Source: Sparassis latifolia | Lineage: Eukaryota; Basidiomycota; Agaricomycetes; Polyporales; Sparassidaceae | DNA length: 64,000 nucleotides | Assembly (NCBI GenBank): GCA_018466975.1 | Contig: CM031558.1 | Span: forward strand, 1,736,001-1,800,000 | Direction of reading: 5' to 3' | Shown here: in pieces, positions 2,583 to 46,128 of the stretch | How positions within the stretch are numbered: the stretch's first letter is position 1 | How the letters are laid out: each line of letters starts with the position of its first letter | The notes under the pieces: model-generated | Told to the model about the DNA's origin: nothing | What the model saw: only the letters and a program-made list of their open reading frames with translations | Databases searched by the model: none | Translations under genes and position numbers: made by a program

Positions 2583-2585
2583 CAT

Positions 2586-2662
2586 TCAGTCATGTTTGTG
2601 AACTGGACTCCCATTTACCCTGACATTGTCATGAACTGGACAGCCAGCGGACGTCGGCCCAT
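2586..2662 (+). repeat. KDZ element left terminal inverted repeat
   Basis: Starts TCAGTCATGTTTGTGAACTG and ends GGACGTCGGCCCAT. It pairs with 22516-22594 with a few mismatches in the first 25 bases and near identity over the next 45. Confidence 0.9.
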
Positions 2663-3715
2663 CGGTCTGTGTAAGGAGCTGTCAGCGATCGGCTCATGGC
2701 GATGAAGGGAATGCTGGAGCGATGGGCCCACCGCCATAGGAGTATTTCTGAGCGATCGGCCCACCACCATGATGCAACTATTATACAGGCATGGGCCCAC
2801 CGCCGCGGTGATAGTTCTGAGCGATGGGCCCACCGCCATAGGTGTATTTTTGAGCAATCGGCCCACTGCCACGGGGCTATTATACAGCCATCGGCCCACC
2901 GCCACCGTGGTAGTACTGAGCGATGGGCCGACCATCATAGGTAGTGTTCTGAGTGATCGGCCCACCGCTACTGGGGCTATTATAGAGCCGTCGGCCCACC
3001 ACCATAGGTATATTTCTGAGCGATCGGCCCACCGCCACGGTGCTATTATACAGCCATCGGCCCACCGCCATAGGTAGTGTTCTGAGCGGTGGGCCGACCG
3101 CCATAGGTAGTGTTCTGAGCAATCGGCCCACTGCCATAGGTAGTGTTCTGAGCGATCGGCCGACCGCCATAGGTAGTGTTCTGAGCGATCGGCCCACCAC
3201 CACGGTGCTATTATACAGCCATCGGCCCACCGCCATAGGTAGTGTTCTGAGCGATCGGCCCACCACCACGGTGCTATTATACAGCCATCGGCCCACCGCC
3301 ATAGGTAGTGTTCTGAGCGGTGGGCCGACCGCCATAGGCAGTGTTCTGAGCGATCGGCCTACTGCCATAGGTATATTTCTGAGCGATCGGCCCACTGCCA
3401 CCATGCTATTATACAGCCATCGGCCCACCGCCATAGGTAGTGTTCTGAGCGATCGGCCCACCACCACGGTGCTATTATACAGCCATCGGCCCACCGCCAT
3501 AGGTAGTGTTCTGAGCGATGGGCCCACCACCATAGGTAGTGTTCTGAGCGATGGGCCCACCACCATAGGTAGTGTTCTGAGCGATGGGCCGACCTCCATA
3601 GGTAGTGTTCTGAGCGATCGGCCCACCACCACGGGGCTATTATACAGCCATCGGCCCACCGCCATAGGTAGTGTTCTGAGCGATCGGCCCACCGCCATAG
3701 GTATATTTCTGAGCC
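2663..3715 (+). repeat. Left subterminal array of about 30 units of 33 bp
   Basis: Tandem 33-bp units each begin CGGCCCACCGCC (or CACC). Two spacer types are interleaved: one continuing ATAGGTAGTGTTCTGAGCGA, the other ACGGTGCTATTATACAGCCA. A third minor spacer reads ATAGGTATATTTCTGAGCGA. Because 33 is a multiple of three, long artificial open frames run through the array on both strands; these are not genes. It is a likely multiple binding-site region for the element's transposase (inference from position and orientation relative to the right array). Confidence 0.9.
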
Positions 3716-4320
3716 CATAAGCATGGGTCGCCTGAAATATCTGACTAGCCTGGGCATAGCTGAGTTATTTGCCTTGCCCTAGGTTGTCAACTGGGCTCGT
3801 ATCGTGTCCGTGTCATCTTGGTGAAGCATGGGTGGGTGAAGGAACATACCAGATGATTCATCAGGGAGTAGCATAGGTGGATGTATGAAACATGGAGATT
3901 GGTCGGGGGGAAGCATGGGCGGATGCCACACCTGGTTGCCCGAGCCAAGAAGTAGACCATACGAAGTGAACGGATTGTACCCGAAGTCAACCGAAGAGCA
4001 TGAAGTAGACGAGGATGCGGACGGTGCAAATCAGCGCATTTGAGCCGAAGGACACCACAGAAGAAGGGGGCTCCGATGCCGAAGTCGTTGCTCATGCGGC
4101 ACCTTCTTGCTCAGACCTATCGCCCACCGCCATAGGTGTAGTTCCCAGCGATCAGTCAACCGCCATGGGCATATTTTTCAGTGATTGATCCACCGCCTAA
4201 CAGGGCAATGATGGAGCTACCGCCGACAATAATTTCCACGTAATCCACCCATCATTCCTCCACCCTGGTTAGCTCACTATCAGCTCTCCTTGCAGTATCA
4301 CACTCTCTCCCACTGTGGGA
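3716..4320. other. Gene-free interior of element left end
   Basis: Holds a few diverged copies of the 33-bp core (near 4118 and 4160) and several AAGCATGGGTGG-like words at 3827-3920. No coding region can be supported. Confidence 0.5.
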
Positions 4321-4640
4321 AGGGTTGGCGAACTGTGACGAATATCCTTCGCCATCTGAACATGGAGTTCAGAATGACTTCGCCAAACTCTCCCAATTGG
4401 CATCGGCGTTTCGAGACATGCATCGATACAATTTGGGATGTGCCCTTCTGGGTAGAGTATGTGGAGACGAATGGCGGTCCTTTCCACCGTGAGTAGGGTT
4501 GGCGAACTGTGGTGGATATCACTCGCCATCTGAACATGCAGTCCAGAATGACTTTGCCAAACTCTCCCATGTGGCATTGGCTTTCGAGCCATGCATCAGA
4601 TACCATTGGGGATGTGCCCTCCTGAGGAGAGTATGTGGCT
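4321..4640 (+). repeat. Tandem duplication, period about 174 bp
   Basis: Unit 1 starts AGGGTTGGCGAACTGTG at 4321 and unit 2 with the same word at 4495. Both continue with shared blocks such as CGCCATCTGAACATG, CCAAACTCTCCCA and GGGATGTGCCC. The units are imperfect and not obviously coding. Confidence 0.8.
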
Positions 4641-4744
4641 ACTATGTTTCGCCTTACCACACCAGGTACATTGCCCAGGTTCAAAGACATGACAACCTTA
4701 TATTTGACACACTACAGCATGAACGGACGCCTGGCATTGGGCGA

Positions 4745-5465
4745 TTACATTCCTAACTCACGCAGCTGCCGCGTCGCCTCCTGCAGCTCTTCCAGCACCA
4801 CATCCAGGTTCTGATCTGTCCTCTCGTGCAACCAACTAGTGAGGTTCGCGACGCGAACATGCAGCTGTTCAAGCTGCACCAGTGTAGACTCGGAGACGGT
4901 GTACACCTTCTCCTACGTTCTCGAGGTTCAGCAAGACTGTAAGGTGCTGGAACGTACCACTCACCCAGGGATCACCAAGTTTGTACCACCAGGCCTCCAT
5001 AGGGCTCCCCGCCGGCCCAACCTGACAATCCCATTTCCACCAGTAGTCGGGTGAATCCTCGAGTAGGTTCTTAGGATGAGGAACGAGGGTGGTGGGGCGT
5101 GGAATCGCCTTGACGTCAATGCTGATGGGGCGCAGAACTTCGCGATTGAAAGTGCAGACGGTGAGGACACTGGCGATAACTCTGCCATGGTCAATATGGT
5201 CAGTATGACCCGCCAACGCGAGGTCGCCACAGATACCCCTGACGGCGAACTGCACAGGACTCAGCAGGGTCAGGCGATATCAGCAAGAAAGGCGTACCAT
5301 CTCCTGGCGCAAGCCTTCCTCCCAACGGACCTTGGTGAAGTGATCTGGGTCAGGCTCCAGTGCCAGAACAGCTTCTTGGATCCTCCAAGTGTAGACTTCC
5401 AACTGCAACCTCCCTCTGGAGAACAGGCAGGGGTGCGCATCTGATGTTGAAGACTGGGCAGACAT
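4745..5465 (-). CDS. Small element-encoded protein with C-terminal coiled coil, three exons
   Basis: I do not recognise the family. The start ATG is at 5465 (MSAQSSTSDAHPCL). Reading needs two short introns: a GTACGC donor just after RQEM joining to FAVRGICGD, and a GTGAGT donor after GDPW with its acceptor before EKVYTVSE. Both junctions keep frame and give roughly 205 residues, ending LRELGM-stop at 4745. The middle exon is rich in Trp (YWWKWDC, EAWWYKLGDPW). The last 55 residues form a heptad-like coil (LVQLEQLHVRVANL, VVLEELQEATRQL). It lies directly downstream of, and on the same strand as, the KDZ transposase, with 198 bp between. It reads without frameshifts, unlike its neighbours. A structural or accessory role in transposition is only a guess. 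Confidence 0.7.
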
Positions 5466-5663
5466 GACGGTGAGTGGATGAGCCGAGGTTGATATCTGAT
5501 CGACCTTATCTGATGTCTGATGTCATGCGATTGGAGAGCACATGCCGAGATGAAGCCCTTAGGCGAGGATGGAGGTCACTTCGCCAAATGTGATATTGGT
5601 GAGTAGGAATTACATACATGACGATCACTACATCGATATAGCAAACATGAATATGCGTACACC

Positions 5664-8600
5664 CTAGTGAACCCTGACTCGAAGCACATTTTCATCGCCC
5701 GCCCTTTCGTCCTCAATGTCCAGGGCGAGGATGTGGCTGAAGGCGTCAGTGGTGTGGCTGGCGAAGGTCCGCCACATACTCACTTGCCTGGCGGCATAGC
5801 AAACATGACCCCGCCAGGAAGGATCCGTCATCTTGAGCCAGTGAGCCCATCGTTCCGCATTCCGCTTGAAGGTGGCTATGGTCCAGGCCATTTCAGAGTG
5901 GACCAAGACACGCTCCTCCCTCCATCTCTCATATCGAGCTCTGGCACGCAGCCAATTCACTCTATAGACTGGAGGGTAAATTAGCAGGAGGCCTAGAGAT
6001 CGATCGGACAATTATGAACACTCGTCCATCCATTCTGATGAACCTCGATCTCCAGCGACATCCATGGTCCAGAACCAAGCCAGGTTGACGTTTCTGAGCC
6101 CGGAGGTGCTAGCCTCGATGACGGCAGTCTTCACGTGCAGGTCCTTCTTATCCAAAGGGCGATAGAGGGCCAAGTCTTCATCGGTGGCGCCCAAGCGCAT
6201 AATGGTGCGTTGGTTGGCGGAATAGAGCCTGGCACAGGCCAAGACGGTCTGATCGGCAGCATGAACCTCCGCCTGTGCACGGGTCATGGTTCCGACGCTG
6301 TTGGCGGACGAACCTCTTGCGGTAGAGGTAAGACTTCAGTCCAAGCGCCATGCGGCTCGTGGAGGATGTCATTCATCAGGCCTTTGCGCAACTCCAACTC
6401 TTGGGCTGCCAGGGTCTGGAGCCCGCTGGCGACGGCGCCACGAATCCGATCTGCGAAGGTAAATTCAAGGAAGCTTGCTCGGTGGAATCGCATCCTCGCC
6501 ATACTCAGCGCCCTCCGGTGTATTTGAAAAGGATTCTCATCCAAGGAATCCCAGAGCGCACCATCGCCACGATCTTCCATGGCGGGAACGCCCTCCAACC
6601 TTCTCATGAACTTCTCAGAGCGACGCTGGAATGTGAGAATGCTGACTTCGAGGCGCTGACGGCGCCGAGAGTCTTGAGGTCCTCCGCCACGCCGGATCTT
6701 GACCGCCTTGCGGATATCATTCGCAAGCTTAAGCCTGAAGGCCGCCAGAGCTCTATTTTTGTAAAGACGAGGCAAACTCACTGTGCTTCTTGAATTTTGA
6801 GGCCAGTCGACAACCATCCGGCGGTGCCCTTCTCCAAGCCCTTGGCGGACTCCTCGCCCGCCAGTCTGAGTTGGGTGAGGTCTTTACCCGGGGCTTGCAT
6901 TCACGTCAACTACATGCCACACGATGATGGAAGGATACTCACCCTTCCTGAGCTGGACATCGAAGGTGTCCATAATCTTCGGATCATTTTGGTGAGCCTC
7001 CATAGCGTCGTCATACTCCTTCTGCCATGCCTCAAGAACCTCCTCATCTGTGGATGCAGATAAAGCTTCAAAGGACTCCTTGCTTCTTGGGAAGCCCAGG
7101 AGCACGCGTTTCCACTTTGTCATCAAGGTTGGCACTGTAGGCAGCATAAGGCAGGTGGCAAATAGGGAAGGAGGAACCAGGCTCACTCATGCGAGTTGTC
7201 TTCTTCCAGTTGGAGTCATTCATGTGATCGTCAAGGACTTCTTGGCGGTGAGCTCGGGTCATGCCCCTGGTACAGCCTGAGACCTCATTTGTGGGCGCCC
7301 ACAGGGTCTCGATGACCTCGCCATCGACCATACCAGCGCCAACTATAAAGTTGGGCGAGAACCGTTGGAAGCAGCAATCTTGGTGTCCGTGCACATGAAA
7401 CAAGCCGATGCCTTGGTCTATCTTGAGCTCGAAGGGCATCCTCAGATAGGCGCTGTGGCGGAAACGTTTGCGGACATGGACACCATACTGGCACATGATG
7501 TCGTACATGATGAGGACGAGGGTGATACCGGTGAGGGTCAGGAGCGCATTGCTGAGAGAGTAATCCATATTCATTTGTCTGCAGAGGGTGCGTCGGTGAG
7601 AATGAATCATGATAAGAGACATATGCGAACCTTTCTCCCTTCTGGAAATCGACGACAGTATGAGGGACGAAGAAAACATGTCTGGCGCAAGCAGTGGCCC
7701 CGATTCCTGTGGCGTCGAGGTTGGCGCGATCCACATTGGCCTGATTGACAGCGCGGTGCTCATGACAAGTGGAGCGCTGGTGGGCTTAGGAGTCAAGGGC
7801 GGAAGAAGAACGTGCAGCCAGACACGCACCTGATGGGACTCCATGGCCACCGCCAGATGAGCCTTGTAATCCTCTTGGCCGACCATGAATGCCTGGCCGT
7901 CACTGAGGGCGACGTCCTCCTCGGGGTGCTTCATCTTCATGTGCTCTGCACTGAAATTGCCATCCATGACAAAGCCACATTTGAACTTCCACTGCACTGG
8001 ATCTGCTTGCCAATCAAAAGGCAGGTTGAGCCCAGGCTGGGGACAGGTGGGACAAAAGATGGCGAGGCCACCCTTCTCCACAGGACGGAGGGCATCGTGA
8101 GAAGCCGTGCCACTTGCGATATTTGAGTTGGCGCCATTGGCGGACACCCGCATCAGCTCACGATAACGGTCCTGGCGAGGAACTGGCATGAACGGTTGGG
8201 CCATGGGAATGCATGTGAACACTTACAGGAACGGTGCCGGGAAGGCATTGCTCGTGACCCGCTTGAGCTTGCTGTAGTAGTTCAATGCCACCGCCTTGCA
8301 CTCTTTGTTCTCCAGAAGGAAATCGCCGAGGACGGCGAATGTGAAGGCGGTATGGGGATCCTTGACGGTACCAGGTAAAGTCCCATTTGAAGAAGCTGCA
8401 TGTCACGCTCCACTGCCATCTCACACTGGCACCAGTCAACGCCGATATGGTGAACGCCAGAGATGTCGATAATGACTATGATCTGATTCCCGTGAACTGT
8501 CACGGCGAGGTGGCCGAGAGCACCGTGGCACATCTTCCTCCCAAGTGGGATCGGAGCATCGCCGGTTTGCCTTGCTTCACCGTCAAGGGTGCCTGCCAGA

Positions 8601-9343
8601 GGTGCAAAGTTGAATGGGACTCGCCATCATCTGAGACCTCGCCATCATGTGCATTTAGGTCTTCATTGGAGGCATTCCAGAAATCGGACCCCGGGCCACC
8701 ACCGCGCAGGGTTGTTATGTGCTGTGAAGGTGCCCAGAGGGCAGGGATCTCCGCCATGCCCCAAATGGATGCAGACGCCAACCCGATACAGTGATGCCGG
8801 CTCAAAATACTGACTCCTGCCAATGCTCTATCCGATGGAAAGGAGCACGCTGATGGCCGCTACGACAGCAGTCGGTACAGGTGAGCGGTCTGCCCATACA
8901 GTCCAGGCATCACCACCGCCCTCGCCAACCTTGCATTCCGCACAGTTTCTGGGCTCAGGCGGGCTTCCATCTCGACAATGGCATGAAGATAGTCATCACG
9001 GTGGGGTATCCAGTCCTCATGAAGTCATTCTGGGTCTATCGCGCATGGTCAGACCGTCAGATGGTCATGGCGGAGTGCCCACCTTTGTCTTCCGAGCCGG
9101 ATCCAGCTGAATTGGCACACCTATGTTGCCCAGGACGTCGCCATCATCCAAGTTAAACAAGGAGCCTGAAGCTGGAGCCTTCGATGGACTTTTGGAAGGC
9201 GATGGCACGTTTGAACCCGTGGGCATGGGCAAAGGTACGTCCACATAGCGTACTCCCCTAGTGGTCTGCTTAGCTACCTTGGTCACAAACTCAACCTCGT
9301 CATCCAGGTCTACAACGAGCCTGCTTTTGTTGCGTCTGCTCAT
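5664..9343 (-). CDS. KDZ-family transposase (CxC Cys-cluster plus KDZ core), with frame breaks in the N-terminal part
   Basis: Catalyses movement of the surrounding element (family knowledge: RNase H-fold KDZ transposases). The ATG at 9343 opens with MSRRNKSRLVVDLDDEVEFV, a typical start for the family. A Cys-cluster follows around 8800-8930 (CAEC, then CLDC, CTDCC, GHQRAPFHRIEHW, then YFEPASLYRVG and GHGGDPCPLG). The core lies at 7050-8200: FCPTCPQPG, DGNFSAEHM, GIGATACARH, MNMDYSL, YDIMCQYGVH, LFHVHGHQDCCFQ, GAGMVDGEVIETLW and HRQEVLDDHMNDSN. An intron with acceptor CTCTGCAG precedes QMNMDYS. The helical C-terminal region runs to 5664 (NWLRARARYERWREE). The Cys-cluster can be read only by changing frame about three times between 8830 and 8945, while the core is intact. 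So it is either inactivated or affected by single-base assembly errors. Confidence 0.9.
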
Positions 9344-9872
9344 GGTTCAGGTCAGTGGGGAGTCGTATTGCAAACTCATCGATGAGCATTGTGTCCCTAT
9401 CGCACAACATGTGCAAATCACACACGGTCTTGCTGCCCACCAGACTACTCATCAAGGTGGTTAAGAATGGCTGCAATGCCTGGGCCTTATCACCTCGTGG
9501 TCTCTTTAGGCACCATATCAGCGTTATGCAGATAAGGATGCCATGTTGGCGAGAGGTCCGCCAATTGTATGTCGCCCTCAGTGCTAACTTTGCCTTGACT
9601 CGGAGTAGCATAATGTTCAAAAGGGAAACGTGCACTTGCACCGTGCACTCGCCAACACTGCCGCCATCTGCCCCACTAGCACTCACAACTTCTCGACCGA
9701 ATACATTTCGCCACCACCTCCACCAACTTCGAGGTCCGCCAACCATACGCTGCCATCAGTGATAACTACACCTTGAGCTGAACACTGTCGAGATGTGAAA
9801 TGTGCACTCGTACCGCGCGCTCGCCAACCTTCAGCTAGGATTCGGAAATTCGAGACTCCATACATTTCGCCA

Positions 9873-10790
9873 TCACCTCCGCCAACTTTGTCCCGCCAAT
9901 GAAGCTGCCATCGACAGTCTCCATCCCCTGCATAGTGTTCTCATCTCCATCAGTCTTTGGCATGATGTCCCTCTAATAAGCGAGCCAGTTAGGACCTGTT
10001 CTGAGTTAGGAATGCAGACTCGGTGATGAACTGTGCACATGCCAATGTGTGAGGCGTAATATGAAGCTTGCATCCAGTGGGGCGCCGGAATGCCTAGCCT
10101 GTTCTGGACACCCTCTCGCATGAAGTATGCATAGACGAGCCTTTCGCCATCTGCTCGAGTGACGCCATGACGAATCGCCTTCCACAGAAGGCTATGACAG
10201 TTCCAGGACTATAATCGATGGCGACACGCATGGCGGGAACTTCAACCACGCGCAAGTGTAGTTGCCCAACGTCGCCAACAGGTCGTAGAAGGTGTATCTT
10301 GTCTTGCTATCTCGGTGGAAAGGAGTTTCCCGGTTGGCGATCACCTGGAGCGCATTGAATGGCGATGACCAGTTCAGCGCCATCTCTCGCAATTCTGGGT
10401 CTTGCTGGATCAAACCCAAGCACTGGCGTCCTGCGGCATATAGTGTTGGGTGAACGACGGCCAGGATGGCGCCCAGCAATGCGGAGGAGTCATGAATATC
10501 ACGCAGCCAACTTCTTCCGCCCTCAAGCTTCAGGCTGGTGGAGGTCTCCAGCCTCCCAGACTCCATATGCTGCAAAGGCTGTCCAGACGCAAGGCAAATG
10601 GTGTGGCGAGGAGACCCACCTCTCTTACTTGTTGGAACCAACCTGGCGAGAGACACAAGGAGCCCGCTGGGAATTGGGCACACTCCTCAGGAGGCAAGAA
10701 GTACAACGGGTTGTGTCGCCAACTGGCGGTGGTGCTGGAAGGCTTACTGGCTGCTATTGCTGGGTGTAGGGCCCTGGTCGCTTGGAGCAT
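9873..10790 (-). CDS. TET/JBP-type 2OG-Fe(II) DNA-base dioxygenase, frame-shifted
   Basis: Family members oxidise methylated DNA bases (5mC in fungi). The catalytic region reads ILAVVHPTLYAAGR, then SSPFNALQVIANRETPFHRD, which supplies the HxD iron-binding motif (HRD). It continues YDLLATLGNYTCA, YSPGTVIAFCG and AIRHGVTRADGERLVYAYFM, which supplies the distal His and the RADGER region, and ends near IPAPHWM. Two single-base frame changes are needed: one near 10245 (between NYTCA and VVEVPAMR) and one near 10175 (CTGTGGAAGGCG, between FCG and KAIRHG). Upstream in-strand coding stretches (10530-10790, ATRALHPAIAASK) look like its N-terminal part. Further minus-strand frames to about 11737 (GVLELMFRRKL, CRFYGRAHHTNF) may be earlier exons, but I could not join them. 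It lies inside the KDZ element on the same strand as the transposase. Confidence 0.8.
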
Positions 10791-11737
10791 CTTCGTCTGA
10801 CAAATTTGTCAGATCACAGTGCAAGGCTGGGCAAGCCACTCACCTGGCGGTCTGGTATCAACACTCTTGGAAGTATCCAAGCCAAGATGCGTCCGTGCAT
10901 GTCCACGAGGGTGGCGGGCTGGTCTATGCGTATTTCGCCTCACCAAATGGAGGAGGCCACTCCGCTCCAGTTCTGCCTCGAGGACTTCATTCTGCCCCGT
11001 GGGCTGAATCGAAAGGCTGTCGCAATATCTATCAATGTCCCACTGCAGCCTTACTATTACAATGGCGTGATCAGTGTGATCAGACCTGCGGCAAGACTAA
11101 TGACTACCAGGATTACGGATGGCCTTCACAAGAGCATCTGCAATGCCATTGCACTCCAATAGGAGGGCGGATGGCATGGACGGAGGCACTTCTATAGATG
11201 GCGCAGAATGGGCTGCATGAGTGGCCAGATGGAGCTTTCGGCGGAACATGAGCTCCAAGACTCCTGCTATCTGATCGGTCAGTGGCATGGGTGACAGATT
11301 GCTCATCTTGATACTATCTGCCAATCAATGGGACGATTACAGCATGCATCGGTTGAAGGAACGCACAGGTGTATGGCGGGCTCAGGCGGTTGGCTTGCAG
11401 ATGCAGGGGAGAATGTAGGAGGGGCCAGAATGGCAAAGAACAGTATGCATTCATCTGCCTGCATATTGCTTGCAAGCACGTCCCTTGCACATCTCACATG
11501 TTCATCATGCCGCCGAGCCGGACTTGATGCCGCCATGCCGGATCACGGGCCGGGTGGTCCGCCATGTCTGGGCCCTTCGTCACCGCCATCTAATTGGCTG
11601 AGCCTAACTCCGAGGAAGCCCTTTATCCCACAGATTGGCATGCAGATGATCGCCAGATTGGCTCCGCCCAGCATTCGTGAGATGAAGTTGGTGTGGTGTG
11701 CTCTGCCATAGAAGCGGCATTCAACATTGTCTTTCAC
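10791..11737 (-). other. Probable 5' exons of the TET/JBP-like gene, unresolved
   Basis: Minus-strand open stretches at 11097-11324, 11303-11536 and 11543-11737 have plausible composition (for example SNLSPMPLTDQIAGVLELMF) and lie just upstream of the dioxygenase. I see no clean splice chain. No plus-strand gene is convincing here. Confidence 0.35.
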
Positions 11738-11854
11738 CAGGCATGAATGCTAGTGCATACCTACTACCACCTCCCGCCACTGCGAAAAATACACATACAA
11801 TGCTTCAGCAGTCACCACACACCATGGCGAGGAGGGTAATTGGTGTAAGCCCAA

Positions 11855-14800
11855 ATGGGCCATCAGCACGTGCATGTTGAGTTGTGGGCGGCCGACGAGG
11901 AAATGGACAGAGCGCTGCCCGTTGAACTATCGACCCTCTTCACTGCCCCAACACAAAAATCTCATCCTCGACATCGAGAAAGCATGCTGGCGAGATTTGT
12001 AATTTTGACGGAGCATCAGCCCATACTCTCTGAGAAGCTGCGGTCTTATGACACGGCAGATGCCAAGGGACGCAAGACTCTGGTTCAGAGCTTGCGCCAG
12101 AAGCTGAAGACACAGTTTGTCGACACGTCAAATTATGACGACATCATTGTGGAAACTGTGAGCAGTGTTTCATGTCTGTGAGGTCCCCACTAACTCTCAC
12201 CGCAGAAAATCTGAGAGTGGCTCAATAACCACGCCCGCCATGCGCAGGAGAAAGCGACGAAAAAGCGTATGCATGTTTCTGGCAAGCCCAATGCCTTCAA
12301 GGTGTGGGATGCGCTGGAGAGGGACAAGGTGACTGAGGCCGCGCGAGCACTCGCAGCAGATAAGGGTTGCAATGTCTCCAAGGTGTGGAGAGTCGCACGG
12401 AGTGCCGAATGGGCAAAACTGTCCGAGGAGGAGCAGAAGGTGTATGAGGAAAAGGCGGAAAGTTGGCGCAATGGCACTCTGGATGATAAGATGAAAATGA
12501 AGTGCGTACCTCCTGTCACATAGCATAAGGCAAATCCTGACCTAAGACAGGCTGAGGGAGCAGCGAATGATGCAATATCTGAAGAAGTTTGCCAAGACTA
12601 TGTGGGACACCATGGGCATTCGCATGGCATTCATGCTAGCATATCCGAAGGAAGCGGGGAGTCTGAAGGTAGAGATGTGAGCGTAGACTGTCCGACTGTC
12701 GCCATCTGCTAACCCCCGAGTGAAGGGTGGAGGTCAACCATGCCATCACCAATGGAACTCCATTCGGGGCCTATCCTGGGTGGCTGCGTGCTTACCAGCC
12801 TCTAGCAAAGGTGTTCTCTGAGTGGGCCAAAGGCGAATACGGTAAGAAGACCTCAGTTGCATTGTCGCTGGCACACTGACCTGATTCCTTAGGTGTGACT
12901 GAGACTATGGTGACGGTGAAGAAGACACCTGCCGATTGCATGCGGGCCATGGACAAGATTCAGTTGATGGCCAACGGTTTTCCTCTGCTCCTGTCGGTGC
13001 CCGAAGGTATGGCGGAAGCGCCTCTCAAGGTGATGAAGGTACAAGTTCGAGACTTCATGAATCATCACTACGGTATGACACTCCCACTCGGTGTTGAGAG
13101 ATGCTGACCAGTTTACAGCATTGGCGAAGGGTGTTCGAACTGCAAGTCGCCATGGACGGCTGAACAGCATAGACGACATCAATGAGGTTATTCCAGTGGA
13201 GATGCTACCTGAGAACTTCCAGTGGATCGATCCTCAAAGATGACAAGTGTTCCCGTTCGTGCCCTCCTCGACCACTGGCGGGCATGCCAAGAGGAACATG
13301 GACCTGAGCAGACCATGCGATTCACCCAGTACTTCGACAAGGATGGCGAAGCTGCTCCCGCCAAGTATGATCCTCTTCCACCACTTGACGGATCAGCACA
13401 GGCATTAGAAGAAGGATCTGAACATGAGGTCCAAGAAGCACTCACACCAAGAAGGCGGGAAGGCGAAGAAGAAGGGTAAACCTGTGCGCAAGGTCACGGG
13501 AAAGGCGGCATCGAAGGCGACAAAGGGCAAAGCGGCCCCTGGCGGAGCCAAAGGCGGTGGGCGTAAACGCAAGATGAAAGATGCATACGACTCGGAAGAT
13601 GATGCCAGAAGCAGCCAAGACTCTGATCGGAGTTCGCCAGATATACCCAGCATGGCTTCCGAAGAAGATACGGCCAGCGATGAAGATTCAGGGGATGGCG
13701 AGAGCGTGATTGCGAATAAAGCGAAGAGCAAGGCAGTCGCCACCACCAATGGACGTAAGGCTAACAATGGCAGTGCACCTCAAGCGAGTGGTAGCGGTGG
13801 TGCCAAGATGAAGGCAAAGCGAGGTCTCCAAGACCTTCCTCTGGGCGAACTGCACAGATTTGACACAGAGGAGACCGATGAAGCATGGAGTGAACTGGAG
13901 CCCAGTACAAAGGAGCTCAGGCTTGAGCTTCAAGGCCAAGCCCCGCGTCTCACTGGCGGGAGTACTGTGGGGAGTACTGTGCCCCACCTCGTGAAAAGGA
14001 GAGACGTGTTTCTCGCCACCCTTTCCGTCGAACCACGATACCAGGATATGCTGAAGCAAGTCAAGATTGCGACTGTGGTGAGCTCCTTTCGTGGGGATTC
14101 ATATACACTATTGATCATCCGTCATATAGCCCCAGGTGTATCGTTTCGCCAGGTATGATCCGATTCCCTGGAGCGAATGGTCGTATGGCCAGCGCTACCT
14201 CCCACCGTCATTTCATGCGGTGGACAACTTTGACATCGTCGAGAACTGGTTGGGCGACAAACCATGGCTGACAAAATATCGGTTCTTACATCCACAGGGC
14301 GTACAACAATCTGCACTCGTGATTGGTATGGCGCTGAGGGACCTCACACGATCTCAGTTCATTGAGGAGGGCGAACCGACCAACCTTCCCGACTATGTGG
14401 TGAACTCGGCGATCTCATTTGACGCAGTAGAGCAGCTGCTTCGCTGTTGCGAGATCATTACCTTGGACATGGTGGAAGGGAACGTCACCCATGCCATGGT
14501 GAAGCCAGTGAGCAAGCCTGCCATACGCGGTGCCCCACAAGGTGGCGATGGCCTTGGGGGCCAGGAGGAGCAGGAAGGTGATGCCTCTGCAAGAACTCAC
14601 GATGGCGCTGCTACTGCTGCCAAAGTTCACAAGGCTCACCAGCCTGCCCCCATGGCTGACAAACCAATCATTCCAAGTGGAGGAGACAAAGGGCCGAGCC
14701 AGGAGACCAGTGGTGGGGCCTCTGACGATGGCGAAGAGGACGATGCACACTTGTCCGTACCTAGCAGTGGTGCTGAACGACCGCCACCGCCTCCATTTAT

Positions 14801-15284
14801 ACCTAAGACGAGGAAGGCCGCAGCCACGGAAGACCGTCCGTCAGGTCAAGCCAAAGCGCTCCAGGGAAGGTCGATCACCGATGCCCTTCAGAGTAATATC
14901 CCCGGCAGGATCACTCGCAGTCAGCGTCAAGCGATGGATGAGTCGCCCGCCAAGAATACCCGCAGTCAGCATCCACTAGGAGCTGTGAAAGATTTGAAGA
15001 AGCTTCCTGATCCAAAGCAGAAACGTCAACCAGCACGTCCCGAGCCCGATGGCGAAGACAGCTCTGGCGAAGACAATCCGCCACCTCGGAAGCGTGGACG
15101 TGGTACTCGGGACGAGTTGGTAGTGGCCTCGCCGAGGAAGAAGAATGCGAGGGCCGAGGACTCGGATGATGGTGACAAGCCTCCCGCAAAGCGAAGACGA
15201 GCTCTGCCTCAGACCCCGGAGGTCAAGGACAAGGGAGAAACCAAGCTGAAGCCGGTCCGTCTGGGAAAGCAGCCGCCAAAGTGA
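11855..15284 (+). CDS. Large HMG-box-like, highly charged chromatin-type protein, multi-exon
   Basis: The N-terminal part (MLARFVILTEHQPILSEKLRSY) is followed by an HMG-box-like helix bundle at 12269-12510: KPNAFKVWDALERDKV, KVWRVARSAEWAKLSEEEQK, VYEEKAESWR. Further exons give FAKTMWDTMGIRMAFMLAYP, GAYPGWLRAYQPLAKVFSEW, VKKTPADCMRAMDKIQL and LPENFQWIDPSKM. A long Lys/Gly/Ser-rich basic region (13424-13830) follows, then a folded block at 14140-14470 (RYDPIPWSEWSYGQRYLPPS, NWLGDKPWLTKYRFLHPQG). The tail is Arg/Lys/Pro-rich with TRSQRQA and KRGRGTRDE motifs and ends at 15284. Introns are short. The exact start is uncertain: 11855 is the first ATG in frame, and an upstream ATG at 11824 is possible. 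It diverges from the TET/JBP gene. A DNA-bending or target-site role is inference. Confidence 0.75.
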
Positions 15285-15550
15285 AAGAGAGTGGCTGTTG
15301 GCGCAGGTCGCAAGACCCGCAGTGGCGGCACCAGACCTTGACAATATAACTCCAGTTCAAAGTAGACTCGTAGGCTTCCACATTGTTTAATGTGACCCAT
15401 AGATCTACATAGGTAAAGCCATGGAGATGGTGGCAATGGCGAGGGGAGTTGGCGAGAACTTCAGCAGGCATTCAGTTGACTTGGAGTGGCGGTGGCGAAT
15501 CGAGTGCATGGAGATTCCATGCTAGGTTAAAAAGCATGTATATCAATACT
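15285..15550. other. Intergenic between convergent element genes
   Basis: No coding region seen. It separates the 3' ends of the plus-strand HMG gene and the minus-strand coiled-coil gene. Confidence 0.5.
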
Positions 15551-18500
15551 CTAATGACTACACATTGTGGCTATCTGGGCAAAAGGCGGTGAAGACCATG
15601 GCGGAGTCGACCTTCTCTCGAATGCGCCCAGAGACTTCGCCACCAGCGAGGTTTCTCTCGCCGCCGCCACCTCCTTCCCCACCTTCTTCGCTTCATCCAA
15701 AGCGGACGCCGCCACCGCCATCGAATCCTCTTTGGCGAGTGCCAATTCCATCTCCAGCTTGCTCGCTTGAGCGATCGCCTCTGCCGCCGAAGACCTGAGC
15801 TCCTTCTCCATGCTGTCTGACCACGCTGCCTGGAGCTCCATCGAATGACGGAGGTCGGCCATTCGCCCTGCAGCTTGTCGACGCCCGCTTGGCTCACCGC
15901 CTGGTTCGCGCCTTGCTCCAACCTGTTGACCTTCTCCTTGAGCTCTGGCAGGCAATGTCGCTGGCGACGAGGTCCGCCACCGCCAACTTCACGCCTCCTG
16001 AAGCTCGATGGTGACCGGCCTGCGAAACTCCTCCATCGCCAACTTGACCTCTTCGCGAATGCTCCGGGCATTTTCTTGAAATGCGGATGGCGGGTTGATT
16101 CGCTGGAGCGCCGCTGTGATCTCTGCCTTGACGGTGTTGAGGTCCGCCATCCTCTCCTGGAATTGGACTTCCATCCCGCCCCAGCGCCAGGAACTGCTGT
16201 CGCAACTCGGCACACCGCGCAGTCATCGCTGGATGACTGCGAGGTTTCTTCACCACTGGGGTGTCGCTTCATTCACCGGAGCGACTTCCTGTAGACACTC
16301 GCTGGACGCCGCGCAAGTGGGGTGCTGTATCCCTGGTCAGCGCTGCATGGATTAGAAGCTGTGGCGGGCGCACTTACCCTTGCTGGTCGGAGGCACTGCT
16401 CTGAGGCGGTTCGCCTTCGCATCCCTTTTCGCCTCCGCCTCCTTCTTCGCTGCCTTGCGGTCCAGTGGGGCGCCCCTCTTAGCTGGCCTTCGCCCTTCAT
16501 CGAGATGTCCTGCCTTCGCCAATGTGGAGGACTTCGCTCCCTTCGACGCCTTGGATATCTCCAGGGAGGGCGTCACCTCCTGTGCCACCTCGGCAGCTCC
16601 TGCGCTGCCTCGTGGGGCATCAGCAGCGAACGCCGCCGATCGTCGTGCGGCCGCTCCAAGGACGCGCGCTGTTTCATGGTTACATCGACTCCAGCTGCGA
16701 CAAGATGTCCTGCTTACCTCATCCTCCGCCACCTCTGCCTGATACTCTGGCGCATCCTCTGGTTCGTCGGCGACTGGTGTCAGCATGCGCTTGCTGCTGC
16801 TAGCTTGCGGCGGAGCAGCTGGCCCTGTTTGGAAGGCCATAGCCCGCACCGCCTCCATTGCCAGCCTGGCGGCTTCCTCCATGCCATCGCCTTCTGCCAG
16901 AGGCATCTTGGCTGCTGCCTTCGGAGCACTCGCTTCGCCTTCCTGGTGATCACAGGCACCATTGGGCCCGAGCGACCTCCCATCGCCACTCCTTGTCGCC
17001 TGCCCGCCTCCTTCGCAACAGACTTGGCAGGCAGGACCTCATCCGCCTCACGTACTGAGGTCCTGGTGACCTCGCCACCATCTTGCGCACCTGAGTTTTG
17101 GCTCCTCACCGGCTTTGGCTTGGGTCCTGATTTCTTACCTTCGCCAGGTTTGGCGACCGCACCAGACTTGGCAGGCGCGCCAGACTTGGAGACCTCGCCA
17201 GAGTTGGCGACCTCGCCAGAGTTGGACAGAGCCACAGCTCCAGTGGCGGTGGCGGACTTGGTGGCGCGCTTGGACTTCGACGATTTCTCCACCGAGGCCT
17301 CGCCTTCAGCGTTGGCTTCATAGCGCGTGACGGTCGCCTTCTGCTTCGTCGCCTCGACCTCCTCGCCACCCTTGACCATGGAGCTGGATGCTGCAGCATT
17401 GCGTGTCTTGGTCTTCTTCGGCGGCTTGCGCTTCGACGCTCCCATGACCATGGGTTCTGCACCATCGGGCTCATCGGAGTCGACCTTGACGTCGTATGGA
17501 GGTGGCGACGTGGGCAGTGGCTTGCCCTCTACCACCAGCGCTGCGCACATCTCTTGGAACTCACGCCAGCGGTGTGTGAGTTTCTCGCAGGGGCACGCCG
17601 TCCGTGTTCCTCAGCGCGATGCTGCAACTGACGCCTCATGCTGCACATTCGAGGCAGCGACCGAAGTTGGCGGTGTTGAGCTTGCATGGCCACTCTTTCT
17701 CCTGGCAGCCAACGCAAGGGACGAGCTGCAGGAACATTAGCACAGGTCAATGTCTCACAAGATCGTTACTCACCGAATCTGTTGCATGTGCCCACATGAA
17801 GTCAGACACGCTGGTGGACGCCTTTTTCCACATGTCCTTCTGCGACACCGTCACCTTCGCCGCTTCGCCTTCACCGCCGCTTTCCTTCGCCGCCGCTTTG
17901 CCTTCCCTTCGCCTTCGCCTTCGTGCGACATGAGGCGTCGCCGCCATCCTCGTTGTCTGTTTGACAGGTTTGGCAGGGGCGTTCGTCTTCGCAACACCGT
18001 CGTTAGAGTCCCCGCGGTCTTGGCGGTAGATTGAAGGCGGTGCCGGAGTCTCATCTTCGCTTTCGATGAACTCCTTGCTCTTGTATTCCTTCGTCGCACG
18101 CTTCTTCTTTGGCGGCTTGACGGTCGGTACTTCCTCTTCATCGCTTGACTCCTTCGCCTTCCTCTTCCCGCTCTTCTTCGTGCTCACCTTCGAGCCCTCC
18201 ACCTCGGTCTGCGCCATCCTCTTCTGCGCACGCTGCGCCGGCCAGAGGTGGTCGGGCCTCGCCTTTCTCCTTTGCGACTCGATCGGCTTCATCCGCTTCG
18301 CCTTCGGAGCCGCCTCCTCGTTCTCACTCTCCTCACTCGACTCTGTGATGACCGCCTTGCGCTTTCGGAGTGATGGGGCAGCTGGCGAGATCGATATTGG
18401 TCTGGCAGTTGGCGGAGGGGGCGACGCCGCATCGACCTCGATGGATTCGGGCTGGCCTGCACCCGCACGCCTTCCGCCATCTCATCGCCGCCATCTTTGT

Positions 18501-19294
18501 CGGCATCGCCGCCCTCATCACTGTCGGCATCGCCGCCGCCCTCGCCTCCTGCTCCTCTCCCTCTCCCTCTCCCCATCCTCTTCCTCGCTCATCGCATGCG
18601 CCGCCTTCCCTGCGCCTTCTCCTTGCTCTTGCCCTTTCCCTTGTCCTCCCCCACCTCCACGTGGACGATACGCTCACCCACCATGCCTGTCCCGACGTCG
18701 TTGTCAGCTCTCTCCTTGCCTTTCCCCTTGGTGACGAGGTCCCCAGTAGCCAGGTCCTCCTCGCCACGTCCCTGGGTGTCGTCATCGGCTGGCACATTGC
18801 CCCAGCCCTCCGCTGGCATACTCTTCACCGGTGGCAGCTTGCAATATGGATCTGGTGCAGTCAGTGTGTCGCTCAACGCCTCACAACGCTTGTGACTCAC
18901 CTTCAGTCCACCACTGCCTTCCCAGGTCCTCACACTCCCCATACTTGCGCACAGCCAGAGGGTACCTCTTGTATATCCTCTCGTCGTCGTTCGATATGTG
19001 GTCCAGCCGCGCCAGGGCCTTCTGCTGGTACGCCCGGGTGAATTCCAGCAACGCACTGATGACGATGCCAGGCATCCTCAACGACTTCAAGGGCTGCGGA
19101 AACTCTTTCAAGCCGACTCTGTGTGGCATATTCGGTGAGGGTATGCCAGACCTGCGACCGATGACTTACCACTTCGAGGTAAATTCTCGCCTCCCAGTCC
19201 GAATAGCGAGGGTCGCCCTGGCGAGGCGCCGCTGCAACAATGGCCGCCAGTCGCGCGCCTGCAGAACATAGTTGGGGTCGATATCCAGAGTCAT
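15551..19294 (-). CDS. Element-encoded coiled-coil / Cys-cluster protein, low complexity, with stops and frame breaks
   Basis: Function is not known to me; similar charged proteins with this N-terminus are, to my recollection, common beside KDZ genes in mushrooms. The start is MTLDIDPNYVLQARDWRPLL at 19294. A change of frame is needed to reach GDPRYSDWEARIYLEV. A well-conserved helical block follows (19129-18881: KSLRMPGIVISALLEFTRAY, DDERIYKRYPLAVRKYG). A long KKKRATKE/ESEDE-rich linker comes next. Near 17600-17740 a Cys cluster reads PCVGCQEKEWPC then GRCLECAA, a TGA stop, then GVSC. A Ser/Lys/Pro-rich stretch (16950-17540) precedes Ala/Glu coiled coils to 15551 (MEEAARLAMEAVRAM, EAIAQASKLEMELALAKEDS). 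The TGA may be a mutated CGA Arg codon. Its 5' end abuts the next plus-strand gene head to head. Confidence 0.6.
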
Positions 19295-19319
19295 GGCGAG
19301 CTTGGCAGAAGAAAGCGTG

Positions 19320-21058
19320 AGGGTGTTTCAAAAGCAGAGGTTGCAGTACAGCGGAGGCGGAGCAGACGACGCTATGAGCTGGCAGACGCGATCTGCACCA
19401 AGTTCAACTTCACACGCCACGCGACCACGTGCTTTGCACGCGATCGCTGGACTTGCGCGATTTCTCAAGTCTCTCAAGGTCAGTGTGACCTGCCGCAAGT
19501 TCTCATGGCTCCCAACAGTAAGTTCTATTGCTCTCCTTGTGGAATCTGACTCCTTTGTGATGTTATCTGACCTTTCTATGTCATATCAATCCCCTTTCTA
19601 CAACTGATCTCCCGCGATCCAGGACTGATCGAAGACTTGTCTGCTCGCCACAATCTACCTGTCATGGCCAGTGACGCGGAACCTCCTGACACGCTGGACA
19701 TTACGATGGGCGAGTCGGATGAGGAGGATAGTATCGCTGAGCCCCGTCGTCCACTCATTTCGGATCTCCTTGACTCTCCTGGATCTGCCCAGATCTCCTT
19801 GCCTCTCCACTCTGCTTCTCAGACACCCTCACGCCCGCCACACTACCCCGTCCCTGGCGGCTCCATTTGCGCCATCCAACTCGCCACATGAGCATCTTCA
19901 CCGCCACGCCCGCCAAAGGTACAGGCATCATCTGGATCTGTGGCGCCTGTGGAGGGAAGTCGCGCACTTATTCCTGACCCTCTGGCGCCAGCTTGGGATG
20001 AAAGTCGTGGCAGTTCGCCAATCCATAGGCGTGCACTCATCTCAGATTCCACCCCCACTGCGCCTGGTGGAATGTTCGACTTCGACACTCCTGGCATCTC
20101 GCCAATCCCTCGATGCGCCCTGTTGGAAGCTACTCCCCTTCCTCCACCAGCTCACACTTTCGACTTTCGCACTCCTGACACCTCCCAACTCCCTCGACGA
20201 TCGCTCATTGCTGAGCCCCTTGACGCTACGCCACGTACATCCATCCACTTCAATAGTCAAGCAAGTACGCCGATGGCGAGGGGCATGCTGGTGGACGAGA
20301 CACTTGATGCGGAACCAGTGCCGAAACTGCTGGACTTTGACAATAGTCCTCCTGCCACGCCAGGACGACGGCGAGCTCTGGTGATAGACAGCCCTGGCGC
20401 GACGCCTGTGCGTAGCCAGGTCCGGTGGCTAAATAGTCCCAGCACTTCGCCTCCAAAGAGGCGGCCTTTGTTGGACGATGTTTTAAGTCCACCGCCTCCG
20501 CCATCGGGCGCTCTCACTCGCCAGCTCGCACTTTCGATGACAGCAATTTCCGCCACGATGCACCTGTCATTCACTATATGAAAGGCAGCATCGAGCCAGT
20601 CACTGTTACTTCCAGGATGCCAAGTCTGGCAGCACTTCCAGATGAGCTGCCAATCCATCGTCCCACCCATTGGGAACAGGTTCCAGGCTTATTCCCAGAT
20701 ACCACACAGCTGCTGCCAATGGCAGTCCCTGGAGAGACGAATGCCGCTTCTGGCTCACAAGTGGCCCGCCTCGGTAGATCGTTTGTGCAGATCGCAGCAG
20801 AGGCAGACAGTTCCAGTGAGTGCATCCCTGGCAACCTTCAGTCTGATGTTGACCTTATTCATAGTGGACGATGACGAAGGTGATAGCTTTGCAGTTAGTC
20901 GTCGTCGCGCCATGTTGCGGGAGCGCATTGTACGTCTTCAGTGTGAGCTCAACCTCACTGAGGATATGCACGTTGCGAACCTCAATGCCAGCTCGACCAT
21001 GTTCCAAATGGGGTACATTCTGAGGGACATTCGTGGCGAGGCGTATTGCAGCAACTGA
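19320..21058 (+). CDS. Repeat protein with imperfect 28-residue RALI/FDF motif, C-terminal coiled coil
   Basis: No known family recognised. The 5' exon (19320-19510) is basic and cysteine-bearing (RRRSRRRYELADAICTKFNF, CFARDRWTCAISQV) and splices by GTAAGT at 19511 to RLIEDLSARHNLP. From about 19700 to 20510 an imperfect unit recurs 7-8 times. Its core is PRRALI-x-D, then an A/L-TP turn, then FDF-x-TP: for example HRRALISDS, MFDFDTPGISPI, PRRSLIAEPLDATP, LDFDNSPPATP, KRRPLLDDVL. After a frame change near 20515 the protein continues RTFDDSNFRHDAPVIHYM and DELPIHRPTHWEQVPG. It then splices (GTGAGT at 20817) to a coiled C-terminus (RRRAMLRERIVRLQCELN) that stops at 21058. The start codon could not be fixed. 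The gene diverges from the 15551-19294 gene. Confidence 0.6.
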
Positions 21059-21174
21059 ACTAGTGTCTTTGAGCATTTTGGTGTTAGCAATATATGACCG
21101 CTATGTAACAGCTTGTATACCAGTACAAAATGGATACATTCACTTCTGCATCACTAAGCTCTAAAGCCCATCGC

Positions 21175-22400
21175 TCCTCCAGTGTACTCTTCAGATGGGC
21201 GGACTGCGCTCGCCATCACCAAGGCATGTTGTTGCCAGCAATTGGCCCATCGCCAAAGGACCTGAGTGAAAGCTTCACTGCATGGGAATATCGCTCCGCC
21301 AGCAAAGGGCCCACTGCCAAGGGTCAGAGGGTTGGCCATCGCCAAGCCGTGTTTTCGCCACCAATTGGCCCTCCGCCATGAGTGCTGGTGAGTGATGGGC
21401 CCACCGGCAAAGGTCAGAGGATTGGCGATCACCAGAGCACGTCATCACCACCAATGCGCCCGGAAACTGCAGGGCTGTATGTGACAATGGGCCCATTGGT
21501 GGCGATGACATATCCTGGTGATCGTCAACCCACTGGCCTTTGGCGGTGGGCCGATTGCTGGCGATAACATGCTCTGGCGTTGGCCAACCCACTGGCTTTT
21601 GGCGGTGGGCCGATTGCTGGCGGAAACATGTCCTGGCGATGACCTATCCTATGGGTGCTTGCAGTAAGGCCCTCACTGAGGGTGCTTTGGTGATGGGCCG
21701 ACTGCTGGCGATAACATGCTCTGGCAATCGTCAACTCTCTAACCTTTGGCGGTGGGCCCATCCTTCAGGTTACACTCTGGGCGATCGGCCCACTGCTCAT
21801 TCGTCATACTCTGGCGGTGGGCCGATTGCTCAGACAAACATGCTCTGGCCATGGCCAACCCTCTGACCTTTGGCGGTGGGCCGATTGCTGGCGGAAACAT
21901 GTCCTGGCGATGACCTATCCCATGGGTGCTTGCAGTAAGGCCCTCACTGAGGGTGCTTTGGCGATGGGCCGATTGCTGGCGATAACATGCTCTGGCAATC
22001 GCCAACCTCTAACCTTTGGCGGTGGGCCCATCCTTCAGGTTACACTCTGGGCGATCGGCCCACTGCTCATTCGTCATACTTTGGTGGTGGGCCGATTGCT
22101 CAGACAAACATGCTCTGGCCATGGCCAACACTCTGACCTTTGGCGGTGGGCCCATCCATCATCTCATTCATCATACTCTGGCGGTGGGCCGATTGCTCAG
22201 ACAAACATGCTCTGGCCATGGCCAACACTCTGACCTTTGGCGGTGGGCCCATCCGTCATCTTACACTCGTGGCGATGGGCCCACTGCTCATTGATCATAC
22301 TTTGGCAGTGGGCCCATCGATGGCGATAACATGCTCTGGCGTCGGCCCACCCTCTGACCTGTGGCGGTGGGCCCATTGCTTAACGGTTACAACACTGTAA
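21175..22400 (-). repeat. Right subterminal array, core GGCGGTGGGCC
   Basis: More than 20 copies of GGCGGTGGGCC or close variants (GGCGATGGGCC, GGTGGTGGGCC) on the plus strand, spaced roughly 55-65 bp. Spacers such as GATTGCTGGCGATAACATGC and ATCCTTCAGGTTACACTCTG differ from the left array, so only the core is shared, in inverted orientation. Open frames through it are artefacts. Confidence 0.85.
21600..22140 (+). repeat. About 271-bp higher-order tandem duplication within the right array
   Basis: The block GGAAACATGTCCTGGCGATG ... TGCAGTAAGGCCCTCACTGA ... starting near 21620 recurs near 21890 almost unchanged, with the same order of sub-units. Confidence 0.85.
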
Positions 22401-22515
22401 TATGCCCTGCTAGTGGGCCGAGCACTGGGATAAGAACACTAGCGGTGGGCCCACTGCTAGTATCCCACACATGAAAGGTATGGGCCCACTGCTGGTAGAG
22501 GTCAACATGGTGACA

Positions 22516-22594
22516 ATGGGCCGACGTCCTGCTGGCTGTCCAGTTCATGACAATGTCAGGGTAAATGGGAGTTCAGTTCAGGTAACATGACTGA
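22516..22594 (-). repeat. KDZ element right terminal inverted repeat
   Basis: The complement of 2586-2662, ending CAGGTAACATGACTGA at 22594. Immediately outside is the interrupted tnp2 coding sequence. Confidence 0.9.
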
Positions 22595-41668: not shown

Positions 41669-42227
41669 GTGTTGCAGGGTCCAGTCCGGTCCGGGCTTTT
41701 GCCTTTTTTGGCCAGGACCAGGACCAGGACCAGTCCTGTTACGATCAGTAAGGACTGCAGTCCTGGATTAGTCTGGACTGGTCCAGGTCCAGACTCAGTC
41801 TTGGACCAGTCTTAACTGGTCTTAACCGGTCCTGGACTGGTCTTTGTTTACTTTGACTCCTGTTGAGAGATTAAGACATGGTATACACAACTTGTGAGAG
41901 GGTTGTACTTCATTATTACTAGTGTTTTTGCATTATATCTAAGCCTTACTTGAATTCTAGTTTGCTATCATGCTAATTTCTCAGCTTTGGCCTAAATTTT
42001 GAGGTAAAACAGGCTTTAACAGTACCTAAACAGTATCAGTCCAGGACTGGTCCTAGACTGGTCCTGGACCAGTCCTAGCAGTTCTAGGAATTCTGAAAAC
42101 CTTCAGGACCAGGACCAGGACCAGGACCAGGACCAGGACCAGGACTGGCCCAGATAGCAGTCCTATATGGTCCACTCCTGGTCCTGAGGCAGTTCTGGAC
42201 CAGTCCCAGGACTGGACCCTGCAACAC
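41669..42227. mobile_element. 559-bp non-autonomous inverted-repeat element with 12-bp target duplication
   Basis: Begins GTGTTGCAGGGTCCAGTCC (41669-41687) and ends with the perfect 19-bp complement (42209-42227). It is directly flanked by TACCCAGAGCTG on both sides (41657-41668 and 42228-42239). The interior is rich in GGACCA/TGGTCC words. It encodes nothing. The family is not recognised. Confidence 0.85.
42100..42146 (+). repeat. (AGGACC)n hexanucleotide array inside the 559-bp element
   Basis: About seven head-to-tail copies of CAGGAC; a shorter three-copy run lies at 41720-41740. Confidence 0.9.
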
Positions 42228-42239
42228 TACCCAGAGCTG

Positions 42240-44540: not shown

Positions 44541-45590
44541 AGGTTACTCTAGGAAGTATGAATTTTTTCAAAGTAGCTCAGAGCAGCTCAAAGCAGCTCA
44601 AAGTACCTCAGAGTACTCCAGCATAGCCTGAGCTACCCTCAGAAATTAGGCTTTTTTAGAGCATTTTACTGAGTTCTGCCTCACAAATTATTCATCTGGA
44701 AAAACACTATTGTTCTAGATTCTATGTACTTTTTCAGAGTGTCTCAGAGCATCTTAGAGTATCTGAAAGCAGTTTGAGCAATTTTAGGAATTTGAGACTT
44801 TCTCAGAGTATCTCAGCAGCACTCTGAATCACTTTGAGATACTCATAGAATTTACAGTATCTATAAGAAATAATCTGTTGCATTTATAAGGCTGTTACAA
44901 AATTTCCCTCTGTACTTTATATAATACTTTACATTATAACATATTTTGCTTCTGCTATTTAGCTATTATATTAAGTAAGGCCATTTGCACTTGTGTCTTT
45001 TTGTGAAAGATGAGATCATAATGTAGTTGAATTGTAAAGTATGTACTGAAGATGTGATTATAAGCATGCTTTGCATTGTGTTTAACTGAGCTACCCTCTT
45101 GTAATAGGCAGAATTTGCCCAAGTCCCTTTAGCAAAATCTCATATATATATATATATTATATGAGTGTAAGTTTATAACCAGATATAGTGTAGTGGCTAA
45201 ATTGTTCAGTGTTATTTGATCATGTGACTTACCTTCAAGGTTGAGGGTTTAATTCTGGCTGATGACAAGTTGAAAAACCACCTTTTAAACTCAGATGATT
45301 TTTGGTACTTACTGCTAATCTAGATAGTGTGATGGCAATATATTTATTTTTCTAATCTCTATACTTGAGAGTTCCTTAAGGATAATTTAAAAGAATATAA
45401 GGGCAACTTAAGAGAATTCTGAGAGCTTTCTAGGAGTATCCTAGGTACACTCTGAGAGCACTCTGAGAATGTCTGAAAATTTTTGCATAAAAGACCTTTC
45501 TTTGAGAGCACTCTGAGTGCTCTAAGTGCTCTGAGTGCTTTAAGTGCTTTAAGTGCTTTAGGATGCTCTAGGATGCTCTTAGAGTAACCT
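44541..45590. mobile_element. Possible decayed inverted-repeat element with minisatellite interior
   Basis: AGGTTACTCTAGGA at 44541 is mirrored by TCTTAGAGTAACCT ending at about 45590. The interior is full of CTCAGAGTA / GAGCACTCTGAG / AAGTGCTTTA variants (44565-44830, 45415-45580). No target duplication is seen. Confidence 0.35.
45177..45260 (+). ncRNA. tRNA-derived (SINE-like) pol III promoter remnant
   Basis: TAGTGTAGTGG (45186-45196) fits an A box, and GGGTTTAATTC (45245-45255) fits a degenerate B box, about 50 bp apart. AACCAGA at 45177 can pair with TCTGGCT at 45254 with one mismatch. The T arm does not fold properly, so this is not a functional tRNA. Confidence 0.3.
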
Positions 45591-45978: not shown

Positions 45979-46128
45979 CTGTACTGATACGACCTTAAGT
46001 TTATGCACGTGACTTTTTCCATTTTTCAAAAAATCTCAAAAATTCAGACAAATCGAGAAACAATTATTCTTGGGGTCAGCGAAAATTGGAGGTGATGCGT
46101 GACTGAACTTAAGGTCGTATCAGTACAG
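45979..46128. mobile_element. 150-bp MITE, TA target duplication, 23-bp perfect terminal repeats
   Basis: Begins CTGTACTGATACGACCTTAA and ends with its exact complement, with TA on each side (45977-45978 and 46129-46130). Size and TA duplication fit a Tc1/mariner-type miniature element. Confidence 0.85.

Follow-up and report, generated by a model that had tools for sequence, protein, structure and literature searches.

A large TET-carrying KDZ transposon family with five genes, probably Kyakuja-like, in Sparassis latifolia

Here, we analyzed a window of 64,000 nucleotides of the Sparassis latifolia genome (C7:1736001-1800000; positions given without a contig are those of the window). A transposon-like element of 20,025 bp with CA..TG ends, not assigned to either strand as a whole, occupies 2578..22602. 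Its borders were drawn from the ends common to its copies, and its interior is collinear with that of nine others. This comparison placed the termini at 2578 (CAGCCC..) and 22602 (..GGTGTG), 8 bp further outward on each side than the 2586 and 22594 of a preliminary description based on the sequence of the window. The terminal sequences are CAGCCCATTCAGTCATG ... CATGACTGAAAGGTGTG. End-to-end alignment of the left (2578..2662, +) and right (22516..22602, -) terminal inverted repeats (TIRs) gave an imperfect repeat of approximately 86 bp with 79 identical positions among the 87 columns counted, and a 50-nt inverted pair (2599-2648 and 22531-22580) is 98% complementary, in agreement with the earlier proposal of inverted repeats at both ends.

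The element contains five genes. The KDZ transposase gene has introns and lies on the minus strand at 4745..9452, as delimited by the KDZ domain and gene models, with an approximate N-terminal border. Its spliced model matched PF18758 (KDZ) with 179.5 bits (cut-off 26.6), and a cysteine-cluster frame upstream of KDZ (8285..8626, -) matched PF18803 (CxC2) with 40.2 bits, which confirmed the predicted transposase; the 5' part of the gene is spread over several frames in the window copy. The TET/JBP dioxygenase gene (9835..11464, -) has borders taken from the S. crispa proteins P0008 and P0010. In the window copy, one of its frames matched PF12851 with 42.3 bits and is interrupted after the HRD motif. 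Between HRD and the second His, 8 of the 10 copies examined have an open frame, and the C14 copy has a stop. The HxD motif and second His, features of AG-type TET proteins, are present and CcTet is the nearest PDB match: an S. crispa relative of this TET matched CcTet with 98.8 bits, and just two PDB matches were obtained at E ≤ 0.01, CcTet and its like.

The remaining three genes encode an HMG-like, a coil and a repeat protein. The gene for the HMG-like, Lys/Ser/Asp-rich protein (11855..15338, +) was delimited by its Sparassis relatives, tblastn and a sub-cut-off HMG_box_2 match (PF09011; 17.8 bits in the window model and 18.2-21.0 bits in three S. crispa relatives, cut-off 22.4), so that the HMG-box or chromatin-like protein proposed earlier holds as an HMG-like gene but not as a Pfam HMG box. 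The coil protein gene (15561..19294, -), delimited by S. crispa relatives, encodes the cysteine cluster CX2CX6CX9CX2CX6C in nine of the ten copies retrieved, the remaining one not extending to this site; in the window copy, a stop lies inside the cluster. Zn2Cys6 (Gal4-type) clusters follow the spacing rule CX2CX6CX(5-12)CX2CX(6-8)C, which the coil cluster fits, and UniRef gives one S. crispa relative the name Zn(2)-C6. On the other hand, the coil protein had no Pfam match over the cut-off, and a search of P0012-P0015 for Pfam zinc-cluster families gave no match at E up to 1. The third gene (19600..20874, +; start approximate) encodes a protein with spaced R-x-L-[IVL] and S/T-P motifs and no Pfam match; R-x-L motifs can dock cyclins, which for this protein is speculative. 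A frame change splits it in the window copy, and three other copies have a stop-free frame of 435 aa.

A sixth, separate 'Cys-cluster' gene had been listed before; we rejected this candidate, as the cysteine clusters that we found belong to the transposase (CxC2) and the coil protein. The coil and repeat proteins listed with it were recovered; around the coil cluster, two copies have the longest stop-free frames, of 417 aa. When the window interior was shuffled 50 times in rough dinucleotide blocks, the longest frame obtained was 322 aa; together with the copies and target site duplications (TSDs) described below, the 435-aa frame of the repeat gene and the 417-aa frame of the coil gene are thus above chance. 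The TET gene, the coil gene and the 5' part of the transposase gene look broken in the window copy, and assembly errors could explain some of this.

Both subterminal regions carry tandem arrays that share the core SGGCCSACYRCC despite their unlike unit lengths. The left array (2717..3714, +) consists of 33-bp units with 26 cores, all in the plus orientation, and the right arrays (21205..22376, -) of units of 59-271 bp with 12 minus cores and 1 plus core; the core was found neither in 3926-20999 nor in the rest of the window. Orientation is less strict for the pattern GATSGGCCCAC (left, 16 plus and 1 minus; right, 5 plus and 5 minus). CGG-N4-CCG, a spacing that suits a Gal4-type dimer, occurs 13 times in the left array, 5 times in the right and 4 times in the interior, although tandem repetition by itself inflates such counts. 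Judged by sequence, the arrays are good candidate binding sites, no more.

To look for further copies, we searched the genome (41,407,202 bases in 22 contigs) with the left end, the right end, the KDZ region, the HMG-like gene (window 13409-15281) and the repeat gene, and clustered the matches. At least 17 of the 54 clusters printed, including the window copy, contain the five markers in one order and orientation over 19.3-24.6 kb; one of them (C8:728599-748486) was separated by eye from a merged cluster, and because scoring was restricted to the 40 best candidates for each end, copy counts are lower bounds. A match to the TET gene and one to the coil gene lie inside all 17 complete clusters, the TET match being over the cut-off in 16 and below it on C5:4313041. 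One further cluster, of 27.1 kb, has the five markers in order around a nested derivative, and the remaining ones are partial, such as C4:520213 with the left end and KDZ only. Among the clusters found, none has the two ends around KDZ alone. The preliminary description had suggested a stable gene set, including a TET/JBP-like gene, that full-length copies of the same order and ends elsewhere would support and that ends flanking only the transposase, with the other genes unlinked, would contradict; the former was seen and the latter was not, and the five genes appear to travel as a unit.

Nine copies besides that of the window, whole or in part, were aligned; they are collinear in their interiors and differ pairwise by 1.15-4.59%, with an inverted segment at window 11468-12091 in one copy. 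TSDs of 7 bp are perfect in 10 of the 17 complete copies, and these ten are all different from one another; one copy matches at 6 of 7 positions, two have them crosswise and four have none (the window copy, those on C16 and C19, and C6:588444). The right 7-mer of the window copy equals the left 7-mer of the C19 copy and that of a left end on C2. The two crosswise cases are the neighbors C10:495594-515386 and C10:538598-560008, which have exchanged their target duplications as expected of recombination between inverted copies; recombination between copies is thus suggested. A chance inverted repeat is ruled out by the multiple copies and the TSDs.

We also identified two derivatives of 9.1 and 8.3 kb that keep the ends and the arrays, including the SGGCCSACYRCC core (13 plus and 8 minus in one, 17 plus and 7 minus in the other); one has a perfect TSD and the other has none. 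Gene prediction returned no gene models in either. We had considered such derivatives as a transposase-only family, which gene prediction in the two examined does not support. The same gene-less derivative is nested at the same site in the HMG-like gene at C10:2829358-2856457 and C11:3027206-3051686. More ends and inner repeats of this element type are present elsewhere in the genome.

TET+ Kyakuja DNA transposons of Agaricomycetes were reportedly described by Iyer and colleagues in 2014. According to the main text of Kojima (2025; PMC12730594), these elements have CA..TG ends and 7-bp TSDs, and two Laccaria families lack TIRs. The pairing of KDZ with TET/JBP, which the preliminary description had called known, is therefore a published one, and the Sparassis element resembles the elements described there in its KDZ transposase, its TET with HxD and the Asp337 position, its CA..TG ends and its 7-bp TSDs (perfect in 10/17). 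In contrast to the two Laccaria families, whose absence of TIRs is a family trait and no definition of the lineage, it has inverted repeats of approximately 86 bp. It also differs from the TET+ Kyakuja elements of that text in its HMG-like, Zn2Cys6-like coil and repeat proteins and its long subterminal arrays. Neither 'Sparassis' nor 'HMG' occurs in that main text, and we found no published description of the cargo, the arrays or the CpG decay in the literature covered, the main text of Kojima (2025) included. A search on three of the terms KDZ, TET JBP, transposase and HMG, a weak one in which the spelling 'TET/JBP' was unmatched, gave in the portion of the literature covered one paper, on a brown alga; other literature cited, in excerpt, comprises PMC8889193, PMC10411574 and PMC13117138.

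It is most likely (probability about 0.9) that these copies represent a five-gene, multi-copy family of TET+ KDZ DNA transposons in Sparassis; its placement as Kyakuja-like is suggested by the ends and TSDs. The general kind, a TET+ KDZ transposon, is already known, and the gene set here is unusually large. For its class, a five-gene, 20-kb cut-and-paste element in so many copies is also of unusual size.

Relatives of at least four of the five genes were detected in S. crispa, KDZ being outside this search. The HMG-like protein had 7 homologues among 8000 candidates scored, all from Sparassis; the coil protein had 9 among 7999, all from S. crispa; and the TET had 4 among 1105, three from S. 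crispa and one from Coprinopsis cinerea. If contigs of equal length are one and the same and locus tags follow gene order, the TET SCP_0211810 and the HMG-like SCP_0211830 would be close together, as would the TET SCP_0501920, the coil proteins SCP_0501900 and SCP_0501870 and the HMG-like SCP_0502010. SCP_0501870 starts with residues of the repeat protein. The main text of the S. crispa genome paper contains no words that start with transpos, repeat or methyl.

The copies also bear a mark of CpG decay. In ten copies with 1,741 variable columns, singleton C-to-T changes affected 531 of 2330 CpG cytosines, compared with 80/2678 cytosines before A, 123/2585 before C and 36/2322 before T. Mean divergence between copies was 2.83%, and 1.14% without the CpG columns. 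CpG C-to-T changes thus dominate copy divergence, a pattern that CpG methylation would leave, and decay of this methylation type fits silencing by the host; the genome has 5 matches over the cut-off to DNA methylase domains. Decay amounted to 543/3969 in ACG, 358/4154 in CCG, 567/6722 in GCG and 307/5950 in TCG, a context unlike the TCG pattern quoted for rusts by Kojima (2025; PMC12730594), where hypermutation is stated to be undetected in Agaricomycotina. By gene, it was 375/2924 for KDZ, 110/832 for TET, 368/2204 for the HMG-like, 523/3037 for the coil and 182/980 for the repeat gene. The ends do not escape this decay (9/72 on the left and 24/125 on the right, compared with 1775/11285 in the interior), which speaks against the simplest end-protecting TET. 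The view of the preliminary description that the gene set may act as a self-regulating epigenetic transposon is a hypothesis at this stage.

We propose the following mechanism. The KDZ transposase would cut and paste the element at its CA..TG ends, using the inverted repeats and subterminal arrays, and would move gene-less derivatives in trans. The host would methylate CpG sites of inserted copies, leading to decay, and the on-board TET would oxidize 5mC and so delay silencing. The coil and/or HMG-like protein may bind element DNA, with the CGG-N4-CCG core of the arrays as a candidate site, and might assist in assembling the transposition complex or recruit TET to the ends. A five-gene TET+ KDZ transposon working along these lines is, as a whole, the explanation that we consider best and probably correct. 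Its parts differ in strength: the chances that TET acts as an anti-silencing factor are about even, and guidance by the cargo proteins is rather doubtful. In the most specific and quite improbable version, the Zn2Cys6-coil protein would read the CGG-N4-CCG core and recruit the element's own TET, so that the family and its array-keeping derivatives would be demethylated and licensed to jump, and the HMG-like and R-x-L proteins would link the element to chromatin and might also link it to the cell cycle.

The alternative that survives best is that the element captured the HMG-like, coil and repeat genes as mere passengers, with no role in transposition or silencing; we regard this as somewhat unlikely. 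Variants among copies showed no codon-position pattern (two 360-bp windows had p < 0.01, within chance). With gene models that are imperfect, and partial for TET and the repeat gene, CpG decay at synonymous and non-synonymous sites was approximately equal for KDZ (73/1159 vs 149/2119), TET (14/196 vs 23/293), HMG-like (122/1272 vs 177/2055) and coil (127/1539 vs 185/1995). These comparisons suggest almost no coding constraint among copies, by codon position or, for four genes, by CpG changes, as expected of passengers, and the lack of Pfam matches over the cut-off for the coil and repeat proteins points the same way. So does another TET+ KDZ family of this genome: no HMG-like match lies near it, and the 4.7 kb compared from one of its loci is not similar to the window element at the DNA level. 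However, the near equality of both classes implies that copies decay nearly as neutral DNA once inserted, which would hide constraint whether the cargo is passenger or not. The repeat gene departs from this picture (29/232 synonymous vs 36/400 non-synonymous changes; 22/29 synonymous CpG sites variable vs 23/50 others). In addition, the five genes are kept together in at least 17 clusters and four of them have relatives in S. crispa, which argues against mere passengers. The genome also contains two old relatives of the HMG-like domain, with approximately 55% and 52% amino acid identity, and against one of them dN/dS was 0.15 (68 codons, with dS nearly saturated at 2.3 and one stop omitted), which again argues against mere passengers.

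Less probable still, and in our opinion unlikely, is that the TET does not un-silence the element but acts for the host, or hypermodifies DNA to some other end. Non-targeted oxidation in Agaricomycotina and hypermodification are both discussed as possibilities in the main text of Kojima (2025; PMC12730594), and the position of CcTet Gly331, reported there as Gly or Ser, is Thr here; against this, the Asp337 position is kept and the gene lies inside the element in 17/17 complete clusters. The view that the copies arose by segmental duplication of one locus rather than by transposition is hardly tenable: the pair C10:2829358 and C11:3027206, with the same nested derivative and a common 12-base right flank, does look like a larger duplication, but the ten different perfect 7-bp duplications in ten complete copies contradict such an origin for most of the 17.

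Returning to the TET+ KDZ transposon with its proposed mechanism, related strategies exist in other superfamilies. In En/Spm (CACTA) elements of plants, an element protein binds subterminal repeats and is linked to methylation loss. The Sparassis element differs in that En/Spm belongs to another transposase superfamily and has no TET, and binding here is a proposal from sequence. VANDAL MuDR elements of Arabidopsis carry their own anti-silencing protein (as cited in the main text of Kojima, 2025; PMC12730594); they use a sequence-specific regulator of a MuDR family, whereas the Sparassis element has a TET dioxygenase instead. TET genes in fungal transposons are read as anti-silencing devices in the same text. 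The Sparassis family makes this role and its aiming testable, with many TSD-bearing copies, graded CpG decay, an on-board TET and a candidate DNA-binding protein, and with candidate binding sites that are repeated in the arrays and kept by the two derivatives examined.

Several neighboring and related loci were also observed. The second TET/KDZ family is located at C9:271568-284021, C8:489342-501932, C10:4938204-4950816, C11:2344673-2358487 and C14:675571-688393; its TET matches are weak, scoring 28.8-32.4 bits and thereby falling below the cut-off, and approximately 12-13 kb away there is a KDZ match in opposite orientation. The old relatives of the HMG-like domain are at C8:2161300-2162300 and C11:1847300-1847900, the former approximately 5 kb away from a different type of KDZ gene. 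Within the window, a tnp2/Plavaka-type transposase remnant (23429-24436, -; PF02992 43.5 bits, Plavaka below cut-off) adjoins the right side of the element, and the region 42000-48000, with a GC content of 0.38-0.45 and a CpG observed/expected ratio of 0.27, resembles an island of old repeats in advanced decay.
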